A stretch of DNA of 26,617 nucleotides. Source: a virus. The translations under genes and the position numbers were made by a program. Below are positions 585 to 5,177 of the stretch, piece after piece (the stretch's first letter is position 1; every line of letters starts with the position of its first letter). The stretch is taken from positions 1 to 26,617 of the IMG/VR virus record IMGVR_UViG_3300038701_000785. One strand, given 5' to 3'. The notes beneath the pieces were generated by a model. It saw nothing but the letters and a program-made list of their open reading frames with translations, was not told the origin of the DNA and ran no database searches.

Positions 585-755
585 ATGAAAGAGAAATGCG
601 AAGACTGTCCCGTGAAGCAGACCATTAGCGGACCCGGCATTCTGAGTGTGAAATCAGAAGACTTAATCAAGTGTTGTCGAGTTAAACGACAAATTGCGGC
701 GGCCAACAAATACTTTGGCGGTCGGTCCAGAGACCAAACAGGACTAAAGACATGA
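585..755 (+). CDS. Small Cys-containing hypothetical protein (56 aa)
   Basis: This ORF opens with ATG at 585 and closes with a TGA that overlaps the next gene's ATG in the ATGA arrangement typical of translational coupling. The product begins MKEKCEDCPVKQ and later has a CC pair in KCCRVKRQIAAA. A CxxC plus CC set could bind zinc, but the spacing matches no family I recognise. I call it real because of the ATGA junction, because it fills an otherwise empty gap of about 190 bases in the early operon, and because the composition is ordinary. Function is unknown. Confidence 0.55.
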   Translation: MKEKCEDCPVKQTISGPGILSVKSEDLIKCCRVKRQIAAANKYFGGRSRDQTGLKT

Positions 756-937
756 GATACAAAGTCGAAAAAGGATCGGTTTCAGGGCATTGCTGCTTTG
801 AATACTCGGTAATGGACACAGAGAGCACCGATAAATACGCGAAGTTCAGCGCGGTATGCGAGTGCTATACAGAAGAAGATGCTGATCGAATTGCGCGGCT
901 GTTGAATTCTGACTCGGAAGGGCACGAGGATGAATGA
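752..937 (+). CDS. Small hypothetical early protein (61 aa)
   Basis: The 61-residue acidic product begins MRYKVEKGSVSGHCCFEYSV and ends in an acidic tail. The middle portion (CYTEEDADRIARLLN) looks like the helix of small alpha/beta phage proteins in which a beta hairpin is followed by an EEDAxxIAxLLN helix. The start overlaps the preceding stop by 4 bases, and the end overlaps the next start by 8 bases, so it sits in a translationally coupled chain. No enzymatic motif is visible. Function is unknown. Confidence 0.65.
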   Translation: MRYKVEKGSVSGHCCFEYSVMDTESTDKYAKFSAVCECYTEEDADRIARLLNSDSEGHEDE

Positions 938-1232
938 CAGAATCAGGTTAGCTGAAGCGATGGGGTGGAAGCGATTGGATCATACCCCTGACCGATGGTT
1001 CAATGATGCGCCAGAACATCGACAAGAGGAATGTCGCCACACTGAGTATCTACCCGACCCCCTCACAGACGCCAATGATGACTATGCTGTTTTGGAGTGG
1101 GTAAGGACTGATGCGATTGATTGGGATGCTTTTGTCAAGGCGCTACCAACTCAGAATCTTTGGCACTTTGTTCAAGAATACAAAATAGGTGACTACGCTC
1201 GCGCTGCATTAAGGGTACTGGACAATGAATGA
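930..1232 (+). CDS. Phage ABA-sandwich-like protein (100 aa)
   Basis: The product begins MNDRIRLAEAMGWKRLDHTP, continues with PLTDANDDYAVLEWVR and ends IGDYARAALRVLDNE. The order AEAMGW, then a D/N-rich PLTDANDDYAVLEW segment, then a YxIGDYARAALxVL helix is characteristic of phage proteins annotated as Phage_ABA_S (alpha-beta-alpha sandwich). That assignment comes from memory of the family and is moderately sure. The role of these proteins is unknown; they sit in early or accessory regions of temperate phages. The gene overlaps both neighbours by 8 bases. Confidence 0.6.
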   Translation: MNDRIRLAEAMGWKRLDHTPDRWFNDAPEHRQEECRHTEYLPDPLTDANDDYAVLEWVRTDAIDWDAFVKALPTQNLWHFVQEYKIGDYARAALRVLDNE

Positions 1233-1563
1233 CACCGACTACATACGCAAGGCCGTGGAATTGGCTGATGGGTGGGATTTAGCCGAGGGTCAATTGACTC
1301 TACCCAACGGAAAGTTCACCTACGTTACCAAAAATGACTTTCCACAATACTACCTAGACGCCCTAGCAGCGCAACTGGTGAGGCAGGTGGATGCTCTTGA
1401 GGGTTATTGGATTCTGCATGACGGGCACGGCATGGCCATTATTCACAGCAATCGTATTGATGATGGCTTCCCCCAGCGAGTACAGAACTCAGACCGCACC
1501 CTAAACACAATCAGGTGCATCGTTGATTCAGGCGTACTGGACACAGACCGAGAGGGGCAGTAG
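1225..1563 (+). CDS. Hypothetical early phage protein (112 aa)
   Basis: The product begins MNDTDYIRKAVELADGWDLA and contains LPNGKFTYVTKNDFPQYYLD followed by a helix (ALAAQLVRQVDALEGYW). The N-terminal RKAVELADGW segment followed by a Leu-Pro-Asn-Gly strand recurs in small phage proteins of unknown function encoded next to ABA-sandwich proteins. No catalytic motif is seen. The ATG overlaps the preceding stop by 8 bases, and the next gene begins directly after its TAG stop. Confidence 0.65.
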   Translation: MNDTDYIRKAVELADGWDLAEGQLTLPNGKFTYVTKNDFPQYYLDALAAQLVRQVDALEGYWILHDGHGMAIIHSNRIDDGFPQRVQNSDRTLNTIRCIVDSGVLDTDREGQ

Positions 1564-1806
1564 ATGGGCGACAACTTCAGGATGGATCGCATCGAAAGGC
1601 TACTAAAGGAACTGCAATACGAGTGCGAGCGAGGAATGATGGAAGGCGAAATAGATGAGTCTCTGTCCTTTCGATTTGTTGTTCCGGTATCCAAGGCGAT
1701 AAGTGACGGAGTTGTTTTGGCAGAGTTCAGGTCGAGGCCAGTCCCACGATATGCGGCGTTCTCAATAAATACACCAGAGGGCGCTAAATTAAGGGTGGTG
1801 GAATGA
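1564..1806 (+). CDS. Hypothetical early phage protein (80 aa)
   Basis: The ATG follows the previous stop with no gap. The N-terminal third (MDRIERLLKELQYECERGMM) looks like an amphipathic helix and the rest appears to be beta-rich. I do not recognise a family. Its TGA stop overlaps the ATG of a tiny ORF at 1803, continuing the coupled arrangement of the operon. Confidence 0.55.
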   Translation: MGDNFRMDRIERLLKELQYECERGMMEGEIDESLSFRFVVPVSKAISDGVVLAEFRSRPVPRYAAFSINTPEGAKLRVVE

Positions 1807-1859
1807 CCACAGTCCGGGCCGATCAGGATTCAGTCGCCGATAAGCAGGAGGAATCGTAA
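1803..1859 (+). CDS. Possible 18-residue coupled ORF
   Basis: An 18-codon ORF begins in the ATGA overlap with the preceding gene and ends in a TAATG overlap with the next. It spans the gap between two larger genes without a break in translation. Its last codons contain the strong ribosome binding site AGGAGG (1847-1852) of the following gene. It could be a real microprotein, a translation-coupling spacer, or the remnant of a larger gene. The evidence is positional only. Confidence 0.3.
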   Translation: MTTVRADQDSVADKQEES

Positions 1860-2149
1860 TGCCTAAACCGTGGTTTGATGTTCCCGAGTTCACCAATGCC
1901 GTTACTTGCTGGGGTTGCGGTAAAGATATTGTGACTGGAACGGGATCTGGCGATCCGGATTGGGATGGGCGAGTGGTTTGCGTGGATTGCGCCCAAGATT
2001 GGGAGCCTCCGATGATAATTGTGAGGTCCGTGGTAGTCGATACTGAGGAAAAGCGCTGTCCGACATGCTACCGCAAGCTACCAGAAAAGCCCCGCTATCG
2101 GTTGATTGACGGTGAATACGTCAAGGTCAAGTGTGAGTGTGAAGATTGA
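1859..2149 (+). CDS. Zinc-ribbon-like hypothetical protein (96 aa)
   Basis: A strong Shine-Dalgarno sequence (AGGAGG at 1847-1852) precedes the ATG at 1859. The protein has two Cys-pair clusters: CWGCG with CVDC in the first half, and CPTC with a terminal CEC in the second. Four paired Cys sets usually mean one or two zinc-binding knuckles. Such small zinc-ribbon proteins are common in early regions of temperate phages and may bind nucleic acid or protein, but no specific role can be read here. The stop overlaps the TTG start of the next gene. Confidence 0.65.
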   Translation: MPKPWFDVPEFTNAVTCWGCGKDIVTGTGSGDPDWDGRVVCVDCAQDWEPPMIIVRSVVVDTEEKRCPTCYRKLPEKPRYRLIDGEYVKVKCECED

Positions 2150-2337
2150 CAATTCCGTTTGAAAAACTAGCCGAACTGTCACACAGAAAGCGGCCAAGCC
2201 ACGTTAAGAAGTGGTGCCAAGATAAGGGTATCTTGTATATACTTGACGCCGACAATCGCCCCTGCACGACGAATGAGGCGCTCAACATGGCTATAATGCG
2301 GGGTCGCAAGACGGAACCCAACTGGCATATAGGATGA
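2146..2337 (+). CDS. DUF4224-like protein, integrase-associated (63 aa)
   Basis: Translation probably starts at TTG 2146, overlapping the previous stop (TTGA). The sequence IPFEKLAELSHRKRPSHVKK, followed by CQDKGILYILDADNRP, closely resembles the DUF4224 pattern, in which an ELAELTGxxRPSxQxxWL helix-turn-helix-like segment is followed by a short strand and an NxxGRP turn. Known members are small phage proteins encoded directly upstream of tyrosine integrases. Here the stop overlaps the integrase ATG by 4 bases. A role as a DNA-bending or excision accessory factor is a guess from context. Confidence 0.65.
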   Translation: MTIPFEKLAELSHRKRPSHVKKWCQDKGILYILDADNRPCTTNEALNMAIMRGRKTEPNWHIG

Positions 2338-3227
2338 GGCTACCACCCAAGGTACACCGCAAGGGTAAGTCCCTCTACTACGTCCACAAGAACAAATGGA
2401 CGCGGCTATGCCCCGCTGACGCCCCTGAAGAAGTGATAGTGGGTGAGGTCTGGAAGATCCTGCGCAAGGGCGTTGATACGCTCGACAAGGTTATTGACGA
2501 TTATATTGCCGTTAGGCTGGCAAAGCTTAAACCGAGCAGTCAGCGCGAGTATATGCGCTCGATAGACGCCAGAATCCGTAAGCACTTCGGGCACATGCAC
2601 CCTGACGATCTAACCAGTCAGGATATTGCCTGCTACCTGGAAATGCGGGAAAGGGACGGACACGCGGCCTGCGGCAATCGTGAGGTAGCCATTCTATCCA
2701 GCATCTACAACCACGGCATGAGGATAAGGGCCTGTAAGTTCAATCCCTGCTACGGGGTGCGCCGGAACACGGAGTCACCGCGAACCTACTACATAGACAA
2801 CGAGTCGCTGAGGCTGGCAATGCGTAGCGCCAATCCGGGATTACGTCACTTGATATGGGCGGCATACCTGACGGGATTCAGGCAGAAGGATCTTAGGAAC
2901 CTGACAAAGGACAACATCACGGCTGATGGTCTAAAGGTTATTCAGTCAAAGGATGGGAAGCACGAAATACGGCTTTGGTCGGAATCACTGAGGAAGGTTG
3001 TCAGAAGGGCATTGGAGCGGTCGAAGTGCAATTATGTGTTTACGAACGAACGTGGCCAGCACTTCAGTAAGGAGGCCGTGACAAGCGCCATGGGGCGGCT
3101 TAAGAAGGCGACGGGGATAGATTGGAGGTTCCACGATTTGAGGGCCAAGGCCGAATCAGACCACAAGACGGGCCTCGGCTTAATGCGCCGATACGCGAGG
3201 GCCAGAAAGCTAAGTGCGGTGAAGTAG
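2334..3227 (+). CDS. int: Tyrosine integrase
   Basis: This is a 297-residue site-specific recombinase. Residues 1-45 (KSLYYVHKNKWTRL) resemble the arm-binding N-terminal domain. Residues about 48-145 form the SAM-like core-binding domain, and about 150-297 the catalytic domain. Visible catalytic residues are Arg183 (TGFRQKDL), a Lys at 206 or 209, His267 and Arg270 (FHDLR), His277 and probably Tyr287 (MRRYARAR). Only six residues separate Arg270 from His277, clearly fewer than in lambda Int. The ATG overlaps the DUF4224 gene stop, and the stop codon directly abuts the first CTTAGAA repeat of attP. Thirteen of 35 Arg codons are AGG. It should integrate the phage into a host tRNA-Arg(CCU) gene. 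Confidence 0.93.
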   Translation: MRLPPKVHRKGKSLYYVHKNKWTRLCPADAPEEVIVGEVWKILRKGVDTLDKVIDDYIAVRLAKLKPSSQREYMRSIDARIRKHFGHMHPDDLTSQDIACYLEMRERDGHAACGNREVAILSSIYNHGMRIRACKFNPCYGVRRNTESPRTYYIDNESLRLAMRSANPGLRHLIWAAYLTGFRQKDLRNLTKDNITADGLKVIQSKDGKHEIRLWSESLRKVVRRALERSKCNYVFTNERGQHFSKEAVTSAMGRLKKATGIDWRFHDLRAKAESDHKTGLGLMRRYARARKLSAVK

Positions 3228-3410
3228 CTTAGAAAAACCCTTAGAATCCCTTAGAAAAATGAACGCTGCGCCCGTAGCTCAGTCGGATAGAGCACCAGAT
3301 TCCTAATTGGTTGCACAAGGCTTATGATTCAAAGACTTACGCGGAAATGGCTTAGAAATACATCAACATACGGTGGCTTAGGTATGCGATTTACCGGGCC
3401 TCACTTAGAA
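3228..3410 (+). other. attP: attP with integrase arm-type direct repeats
   Basis: The region between the integrase and the leftward operon holds a tRNA-derived core flanked by direct copies of CTTAGAA. Left copies are at 3228-3234, 3240-3246 and 3250-3256; right copies are at 3351-3357 and 3404-3410, with a CTTAGGT variant at 3377-3383. Weaker CTTA matches are at 3321 and 3336. All are on the + strand. Direct repeats on both sides of a core are the usual layout of arm sites bound by the N-terminal domain of tyrosine integrases. The core (CCAGATTCCTAATTGG, 3295-3310) covers the anticodon stem and loop. No terminator is seen after the integrase. Confidence 0.85.
3268..3307 (+). other. 5' half of tRNA-Arg(CCU) forming the att core
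   Basis: Bases 3268-3274 (GCGCCCG) form an acceptor 5' strand, 3277-3293 a D-arm (GCTC, loop, GAGC), 3295-3299 the anticodon 5' strand CCAGA, and 3300-3306 the loop TTCCTAA with anticodon CCT. The 3' anticodon strand should be TCTGG, but TTGG follows and there is no T-arm or acceptor 3' strand. The match ends within or just after the anticodon loop, which marks the likely crossover region. Most phages carry the 3' part of the target tRNA; this one carries the 5' part. Confidence 0.85.
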
Positions 3411-4338: not shown

Positions 4339-4528
4339 GGTTTATCACCTTTTCATCGCCCGTAGGCAGGAATCCCCCGGCCCTCTCTGATTTGTTGAGT
4401 TCGTATCGGCGTCCCTCGTTGAACATCATCTGGCCGTAGTTCGTGACGCTAACGATGAGATTGAACAGAATGACTGCGGTTATAATTGCTATTAGTATTG
4501 AGCGGCCAAGGGACTTGAGGATTTTCAT
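4304..4528 (-). CDS. Small single-pass membrane protein (74 aa)
   Basis: The product begins MKILKSLGRS and then has one strong hydrophobic segment of about 20 residues (ILIAIITAVILFNLIVSV, around residues 11-28), followed by a polar C-terminal domain. The basic N-terminus suggests N-in, C-out topology. The ATG overlaps the Ntn-hydrolase stop by 4 bases (ATGA), and its 3' end overlaps the metallophosphoesterase start by 35 bases, so translation is likely coupled. No family is recognised. It might anchor or partner one of its neighbours, but that is inferred only from context. Confidence 0.65.
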   Translation of the reverse strand: MKILKSLGRSILIAIITAVILFNLIVSVTNYGQMMFNEGRRYELNKSERAGGFLPTGDEKVINLETFVDSRHTG

Positions 4529-4944
4529 TCTAGTGTGTACTCCTTAACCGACCCGCCGCTGTTTTCGTCTACGCGAATTGCCATCTTTACGGCATCTTTT
4601 GCTGTAGCGCCCATGTGCATGGCCACCATCGCGGCTTGCTCACCGGACCCAATGGCAAAGTACCTCTCCCTTATAGGTAGTTCTCGCAGGTCACCATCCA
4701 CCAGGAACAGCCCACCCCTGCGGTGCACTAGAAACAGGACATCATCCTTGCTTGAGCAGCTCGGCCTATCCCTCGTCACGCCAGATAGCCACGCCGCAGC
4801 CTCATATGCCGCGATAGGATCACCGCAAAAACCCACGATGGCCTCCGGTCCAGCTATGACCTTTGTAGCGACGGACGAAATAAACCCCCCCGTCATTCGG
4901 GTATCACAGGCCATAACTCCATCTCGAAAGGCTACGGTAGTCAT
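4525..4944 (-). CDS. HslV/proteasome-beta-like Ntn hydrolase
   Basis: The 139-residue protein begins MTTVAFRDGVMACDTR. After removal of Met, Thr2 would be the N-terminal nucleophile; Asp14 and Lys28 (VATKVIA) sit where HslV and proteasome beta subunits have their conserved Asp and Lys. GFCGD (38-42) and FAIGSGEQAA (around 97-104) match the family's GxxG and AxGSG elements, and the final VDENSGGSVKEYTL resembles the last strand. HslV is about 175 residues, so this is a short form. No HslU-like ATPase is encoded in the window. It is the first gene of the leftward operon, downstream of a LexA-like box. Confidence 0.8.
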   Translation of the reverse strand: MTTVAFRDGVMACDTRMTGGFISSVATKVIAGPEAIVGFCGDPIAAYEAAAWLSGVTRDRPSCSSKDDVLFLVHRRGGLFLVDGDLRELPIRERYFAIGSGEQAAMVAMHMGATAKDAVKMAIRVDENSGGSVKEYTLE

Positions 4945-5103: not shown

Positions 5104-5177
5104 TGGTGCTCTCGTGCGGAATCGAACCGCATTCTCAGGCTTACAATGCCCGGCATCGCCAGCAATGCTTCAAGAGC
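5104..5177 (-). tRNA. tRNA-Thr(UGU)
   Basis: The - strand folds as a cloverleaf: acceptor GCTCTTG pairs with CGAGAGC (one G-U), D-stem GCAT/ATGC, anticodon stem CGGGC/GCCTG (one G-U) with loop ATTGTAA and anticodon TGT, variable loop AGAA, T-stem TGCGG/CCGCA with loop TTCGATT, then discriminator A and an encoded CCA. At 74 bases including CCA it is slightly short: there is no base 26, the usual T8 is A, and position 32 is A. It decodes ACA (Thr). It is unrelated to the tRNA half at attP and is probably a phage-borne translational supplement. Confidence 0.82.

Follow-up and report, generated by a model that had tools for sequence, protein, structure and literature searches.

The 26,617-nt stretch of viral DNA analysed here (IMG/VR record IMGVR_UViG_3300038701_000785, the whole of which is referred to as the window) carries, directly 3' of a tyrosine integrase gene (int), a region at positions 3228-3410 which, judged by its sequence, is the phage attachment site (attP) of that lambda-type integrase and which contains the 5' half of a tRNA-Arg(CCU) gene. 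The int stop codon ends at 3227 and the first of a series of putative arm-type repeats begins at the next base. The features of the locus, with binding of the integrase to the arm-type and core-type sites being predicted, are as follows:

2334-3227, plus strand: tyrosine integrase, 297 aa, last gene of a rightward early operon (PF00589, E 2.7e-12)
3228-3234, plus strand: putative arm-type site 1, P arm, CTTAGAA (repeat scan; TTAG-type arms at a matching offset in relatives)
3240-3246, plus strand: putative arm-type site 2, P arm, CTTAGAA (repeat scan; relatives)
3250-3256, plus strand: putative arm-type site 3, P arm, CTTAGAA (repeat scan; relatives)
3268-3307, plus strand: 5' half of tRNA-Arg(CCU), nt 1-40, the block shared with the bacterial attachment site (attB) (exact match to intact tRNA genes)
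3294-3299, plus strand: probable left core-type site ACCAGA, the anticodon 5' stem (sequence; dyad with the anticodon 3' stem)
3300-3306, plus strand: probable 7-bp overlap TTCCTAA, the anticodon loop with anticodon CCT (sequence; analogy with known anticodon-loop integrases)
3307-3312, plus strand: probable right core-type site TTGGTT (sequence; imperfect inverted copy of ACCAGA)
3327-3339, plus strand: predicted IHF-like site ATTCAAAGACTTA, one mismatch to WATCAANNNNTTR (chance expectation 0.17 per 200 bp)
3351-3357, plus strand: putative arm-type site, P' arm, CTTAGAA (repeat scan; relatives)
3377-3383, plus strand: putative variant arm-type site, P' arm, CTTAGGT (sequence)
3404-3410, plus strand: putative arm-type site, P' arm, CTTAGAA (repeat scan; relatives)

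The five exact copies of CTTAGAA (at 3228, 3240, 3250, 3351 and 3404) and the variant CTTAGGT at 3377 are split three and three around the 40-nt tRNA half, all in direct orientation, such that arm-type repeats stand on both sides of the core, which is the arrangement of a lambda-type attP. These repeats had been described in an initial annotation made from the DNA sequence alone, and both their number and their coordinates proved correct, at a frequency far above that of shuffled DNA: among 2000 dinucleotide shuffles of a 201-bp region no 7-mer occurred in five copies and four copies were reached in just 4 shuffles, and the remaining 26.4 kb of the window holds one further CTTAGAA on the same strand and none on the opposite strand. 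The annotation had also held that absence of the CTTAGAA repeats from close relatives would speak against its reading; TTAG-type arm repeats, including ones of the CTTAG type, were found at similar offsets in many relatives of the integrase, so that this objection does not apply.

The assignment of positions 3268-3307 to the 5' half of a tRNA gene, from acceptor stem to anticodon loop, was substantiated, since many alpha- and gammaproteobacterial genomes have a tRNA-Arg(CCU) whose nt 1-40 are identical to the block over all 40 nt, and the intact bacterial genes of this sequence which the initial annotation had suggested searching for do exist. The shared block comprises the 5' strand of the acceptor stem, the D arm, the 5' strand of the anticodon stem, the loop TTCCTAA and a single base of the 3' anticodon stem, after which the sequences part (CTGGGGG in the hosts versus TGGTTGC in the phage). 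An exact scan of bacterial genomes with a 34-nt part of this half returned at least 119 stretches, the matches listed being mostly intact tRNA-Arg(CCU) genes, and an exact search of viral contigs with the 34-mer found the window as its sole match. The identity thus ends at the anticodon arm, as it does in the attP of elements which integrate at a tRNA anticodon loop, and it is the 5' part of the gene that is carried, which is the mark of elements with a reversed orientation (5'-fragment elements). By analogy with these systems the anticodon loop is inferred to be the crossover site.

Relatives of the integrase were collected and the DNA 3' of each int gene was read, which yielded 36 sites with a recognisable tRNA part. 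The expectation of the initial annotation that the 3' half is the rule was upheld, as 35 of these 36 sites carry it: 29 in reverse complement, where the 3' end of the tRNA faces int, and six in the forward direction, where the 3' half lies on the far side of the core, with the window providing the single 5' half. The preference for the 3' half is usually explained by retention of the host promoter, an explanation that lacks a direct test. In the integrase tree the window is joined, with support of 100/100, to phage L132 (IMGVR_UViG_3300048611_000053), whose integrase is 61% identical, and this pair is placed among phages that carry 3' halves. The sister phage shares with the window the anticodon loop of tRNA-Arg(CCU) as its site, a short integrase C-terminus and TTAG-type arms, but its attP contains the 3' half of the tRNA, in reverse complement and thus in the usual orientation, with TTAGGAA as the overlap where the window has TTCCTAA. 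The sequence ACCAGA precedes the overlap on the int side in both phages, and the window differs from its relatives in the direction of the core and in the tRNA half that adjoins int. The initial annotation had regarded integration of related prophages elsewhere as contrary evidence, and this holds true in a weak sense only: relatives do use tRNA-Lys, tRNA-Thr, tRNA-Asn and other genes, while in the closest relative the target is again the tRNA-Arg(CCU) gene, used in the opposite direction. No close relatives of the integrase were present in the genome contigs searched.

IHF-like sites similar to that at 3327-3339 adjoin the core in several relatives; its use as proof that an inner segment of the attP had been inverted was dropped, as the P' side of some relatives of the usual orientation has a comparable site as well. 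Several attPs (L224, L227, L228, L231 and L135) moreover contain a parS-like palindrome (GTTTCACGTGGAAC / GTTCCACGTGGAAC), which is situated on the P' side in those of the reverse-complement type and on the P side in L135.

The integrase gene terminates a closely packed early operon (752-3227, plus strand), in which it is preceded by a probable excisionase gene (2146-2337, plus strand; PHROG 1266, E 6e-7) that overlaps the start of int by 4 nt. An AlphaFold2 model of the integrase has a mean predicted local distance difference test score of 88.9, and its best PDB match in Foldseek is lambda Int (1z1b, E 4.8e-14) over its length. The catalytic residues R183, K206, H267xxR270 and Y287 are present, as is characteristic of tyrosine recombinases, while the second active-site His/Trp within an (L)GH motif is absent from the window integrase and from those of L132-L134, L136 and L222, most of which have a His nearby (SDH). 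Trp or other residues occupy the position of the GH motif in some members of the tyrosine integrase family. The missing motif weakens the description of the protein as a typical lambda Int and leaves that of a tyrosine integrase standing. The six proteins form a clade with a short C-terminus, which is retained at 36-61% identity. The short end is therefore not a lesion unique to the window phage, since it is common to all five relatives, and on the same grounds a truncation artefact was rejected; sequence comparison suggests that this integrase clade is probably functional, albeit unusual.

Our preferred interpretation, to which we assign a probability of roughly 0.85, is that a heterobivalent lambda-type integrase of a temperate phage recombines in the anticodon loop of tRNA-Arg(CCU) in an orientation opposite to the usual one. 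Through strand exchange over TTCCTAA (3300-3306), int, the P arm and the phage 5' half would be joined, in this order, to the host 3' half, which would rebuild a tRNA gene of normal sequence 40 bp 3' of the int stop codon. At the other end of the prophage the native promoter would remain together with the host 5' half, facing the P' arm. Simple recombination logic thus bears out the proposal that the rebuilt tRNA would lie behind int with phage DNA upstream. Expression of this gene would presumably come from phage transcription, either through read-through from int and the early operon or from a weak local promoter, and the coding strand shows no terminator-like site in the interval from int to the tRNA half. 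The initial annotation had proposed that tRNA-Arg(CCU) of the lysogen would depend on phage-side transcription; such dependence is conceivable, but the cell may be able to do without this tRNA, or a different promoter may serve it. The overlap sequence would set the orientation, as the integrase may bind the near-perfect dyad of the anticodon stem either way round. As the stem forms a CCAGA/TCTGG dyad, a flipped 7-bp overlap would therefore be enough in principle to flip integration.

Several observations weigh against this interpretation. In the integrase 12-13 residues are missing between HxxR and the Tyr, the usual GH motif among them, and the model of its C-terminus is of low confidence. 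The right core-type site TTGGTT is not a perfect inverted copy, the sequence is available as a linear fragment, and no lysogen was found of the window phage or of a close relative with a 5' half. If the shortened C-terminus had inactivated the integrase, the site would be a relic, and both the missing GH box and the poorly modelled C-terminus accord with such a state; however, the short end is kept down to 36% identity (L132-L134, L136 and L222) with R183, K206, R270 and Y287 retained, and most of the short-end relatives possess ordinary attPs beside int, such that we consider a relic very unlikely. It is more improbable still that the window represents one end of an integrated prophage, with 3268-3307 being a displaced host 5' half. 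Lone host 5' halves with their promoter do occur at junctions of this kind (L032), but a junction would need host DNA on one side, whereas at this locus the tRNA half is flanked left and right by the same arm repeat and by phage genes, and the left repeats adjoin int. Least credible of all is an explanation by tRNA-dependent lysogeny, which is defined by a common core of about 10 bp together with a phage tRNA of the disrupted isotype (PMC10865867). The phage does encode a tRNA, a tRNA-Thr(UGU) at 5107-5177 on the minus strand (Rfam, 38 bits; reported only on a shorter stretch with permissive filters); however, in the available part of the genome this phage tRNA is of the Thr and not the Arg isotype, and the block shared with the host is 40 nt in length rather than about 10.

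Two further alternatives accept integration at this site and concern the fate of the rebuilt tRNA. The initial annotation had proposed that TAGAAT (3242-3247, plus strand), which is formed by an arm repeat, serves as a -10 box, and the rebuilt gene could accordingly possess its own phage promoter in the P arm, at this hexamer or another, and be expressed constitutively in the lysogen. TAGAAT matches a -10 hexamer in five of six positions, and a comparable TAGAAT is common 10-12 nt ahead of tRNA-Arg(CCU) in hosts. In the window, however, the hexamer belongs to the arm repeat and is 20 nt from the tRNA as compared to 10-12 nt in the hosts, and the best promoter-like pairing, GTGAAG-17-TAGAAT, scores 8/12, a value equalled or exceeded in approximately 6% of shuffles and at 7.5% of random window positions. 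A promoter scan listed nothing at 3242-3247. The hexamer exists as annotated, but at chance level, and we regard a dedicated promoter as unlikely. It is possible, although not what we favour, that the site is a passive scar, in which case the phage integrates at this locus, but the cell can do without tRNA-Arg(CCU), the rebuilt gene stays silent and transcription from the phage side is not required. AGG can be read by tRNA-Arg(UCU) as well, no promoter above chance level was detected upstream of 3268, and a metagenome-assembled genome (MAG), G004, that yielded only separated halves of tRNA-Arg(CCU) is compatible with tolerated loss of this tRNA. On the other hand, the 5' half is exact over 40 nt, 33 of which lie beyond the overlap, where a useless scar would soon decay, and AGG is a frequent codon in the phage, making up 24% of Arg codons.

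Partial analogues of the proposed layout, with a displaced 5' half and a full tRNA, were encountered only in other integrase families (L314, L036 and L032). The search for prophages of this layout, as suggested in the initial annotation, did identify one of another integrase family (L314/L326), in which a complete tRNA-Arg(CCU) starts approximately 10 bp beyond the end of int and precedes apparent host genes which, from sequence resemblance, we take to be nucleoside transporter-like and quinone oxidoreductase-like. In L319 direct repeats enclose the 5' half at what resembles another attP, and in two MAG loci (L036 and L088) an integrase gene directly follows the tRNA 5' half. Independent integrase families (L314/L326, L319, L036 and L088) thus appear to use tRNA-Arg(CCU) in reverse. 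L036 and L119 share a direct repeat of 2915 bp, 99.9% identical, that ends in the tRNA-Arg(CCU) 5' half, one copy being followed by a tyrosine integrase gene and the other by the tRNA 3' half, a configuration that possibly represents an element of reversed orientation together with an upstream region of its own. As a comparison of occupied and empty sites this pair is weak, both loci being from the same genome with the repeat apparently within one 28-kb MAG contig, and the pair L088/L126 is likewise weak, being from the same genome with just 74 bp in common that end at the contig end. MAG G004 contains a promoter-bearing 5' half (L302/L032) and two lone 3' halves (L300 and L304), and an intact tRNA-Arg(CCU) gene was not found in it; the gene may have been disrupted by elements, or the MAG may be incomplete.

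The novelty implied by the initial annotation is reduced by previous reports, as Islander mapped 3919 islands, of which 3760 carry a 3' tRNA fragment and 159, or about 4%, a 5' fragment (PMC4383910). PMC6563490, citing Zhao and Williams (2002), describes 5'-distal integration as considerably rarer and gives "reversed target gene orientation" as the term for elements with a 5' tRNA fragment. The reversed arrangement is thus rare in bacteria but already known, and the window phage belongs to this known minority kind, since both the 5'-fragment islands of Islander and the archaeal element pTN3 provide precedents. In common with the 5'-fragment islands the probable crossover is at the anticodon; the window differs in that its site is a phage attP, immediately preceded by an int gene that reads in the same direction as the tRNA half, and in having a sister phage that targets this tRNA in the usual orientation. 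In pTN3 of Thermococcus 41 bp of the 5' half of tRNA-Leu are shared and the tRNA is cut off from its promoter (PMC5495485). Integrases of the pTN3 type resemble that of the window in that the 5' half is common to attP and attB (41 bp as compared to 40 in the window), and the rebuilt tRNA, away from its promoter, is described as being expressed from the integrase promoter (PMC5495485, PMC8371274). The archaeal integrase is, however, suicidal, as attP lies within its gene, which integration splits in two, whereas the window int would stay intact 40 bp upstream of the tRNA half. ST64B, mEp390 and ZF40 possess related integrases (24-28% identity), with int followed by attP and crossover in an anticodon loop, but it is the 3' halves of tRNA-Ser or tRNA-Leu that face int. 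Phages of the phiAH14a type, also with a related integrase, provide the 5' end of their target, which reads away from int and is in this instance the protein-encoding gene mutS and not a tRNA. In L002, L004 (phiAH14a) and L007 the attP 3' of int contains the first codons of mutS, including the ATG, and the prophage would thus provide the 5' end of mutS. The gene was identified at the DNA level, where the attP motif matched the beginning of a MutS gene in a chromosome; the 24-aa mutS-like peptide, used as a phmmer query, gave no match to a MutS chain.

The remainder of the window, a linear 26.6-kb IMG/VR fragment, encodes an HK97-type terminase, portal and major head protein, and a match to the HslV peptidase family (PHROG 1040, E 8e-34) was observed at 4525-4944 on the minus strand. 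A gammaproteobacterial host appears likely because the integrase family, judged by high-scoring matches, occurs in 10 of 369 genomes in the class of a gammaproteobacterial MAG as compared to none of 385 in the class of an alphaproteobacterium.

The share of AGG among Arg codons is 37% in int (13 of 35), 32% in the early genes and 21% in the late genes, as compared to a median of 6% in host-like loci, 12% in the sister phage (whole contig) and 5-6% in two relatives that target tRNA-Thr or tRNA-Asn; the int genes of relatives usually contain 0-3 AGG codons. The differences between early and late genes (p 0.048) and between int and late genes (p 0.054) are confounded by G+C content and host identity, and at the level of sequence the enrichment is a lead only. 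It is conceivable, but decidedly doubtful, that inversion of the overlap put tRNA-Arg(CCU) under the early xis-int transcript, in which case the phage would control an AGG-reading tRNA and induction would raise its supply of a limiting tRNA.

The added value of this case lies in the pair of sister phages with opposite orientations at one anticodon loop. With the same loop but opposite directions, overlaps and tRNA halves, the two phages represent a natural pair in which one could measure what loss of the native promoter costs and what part the overlap plays in fixing the direction of integration.
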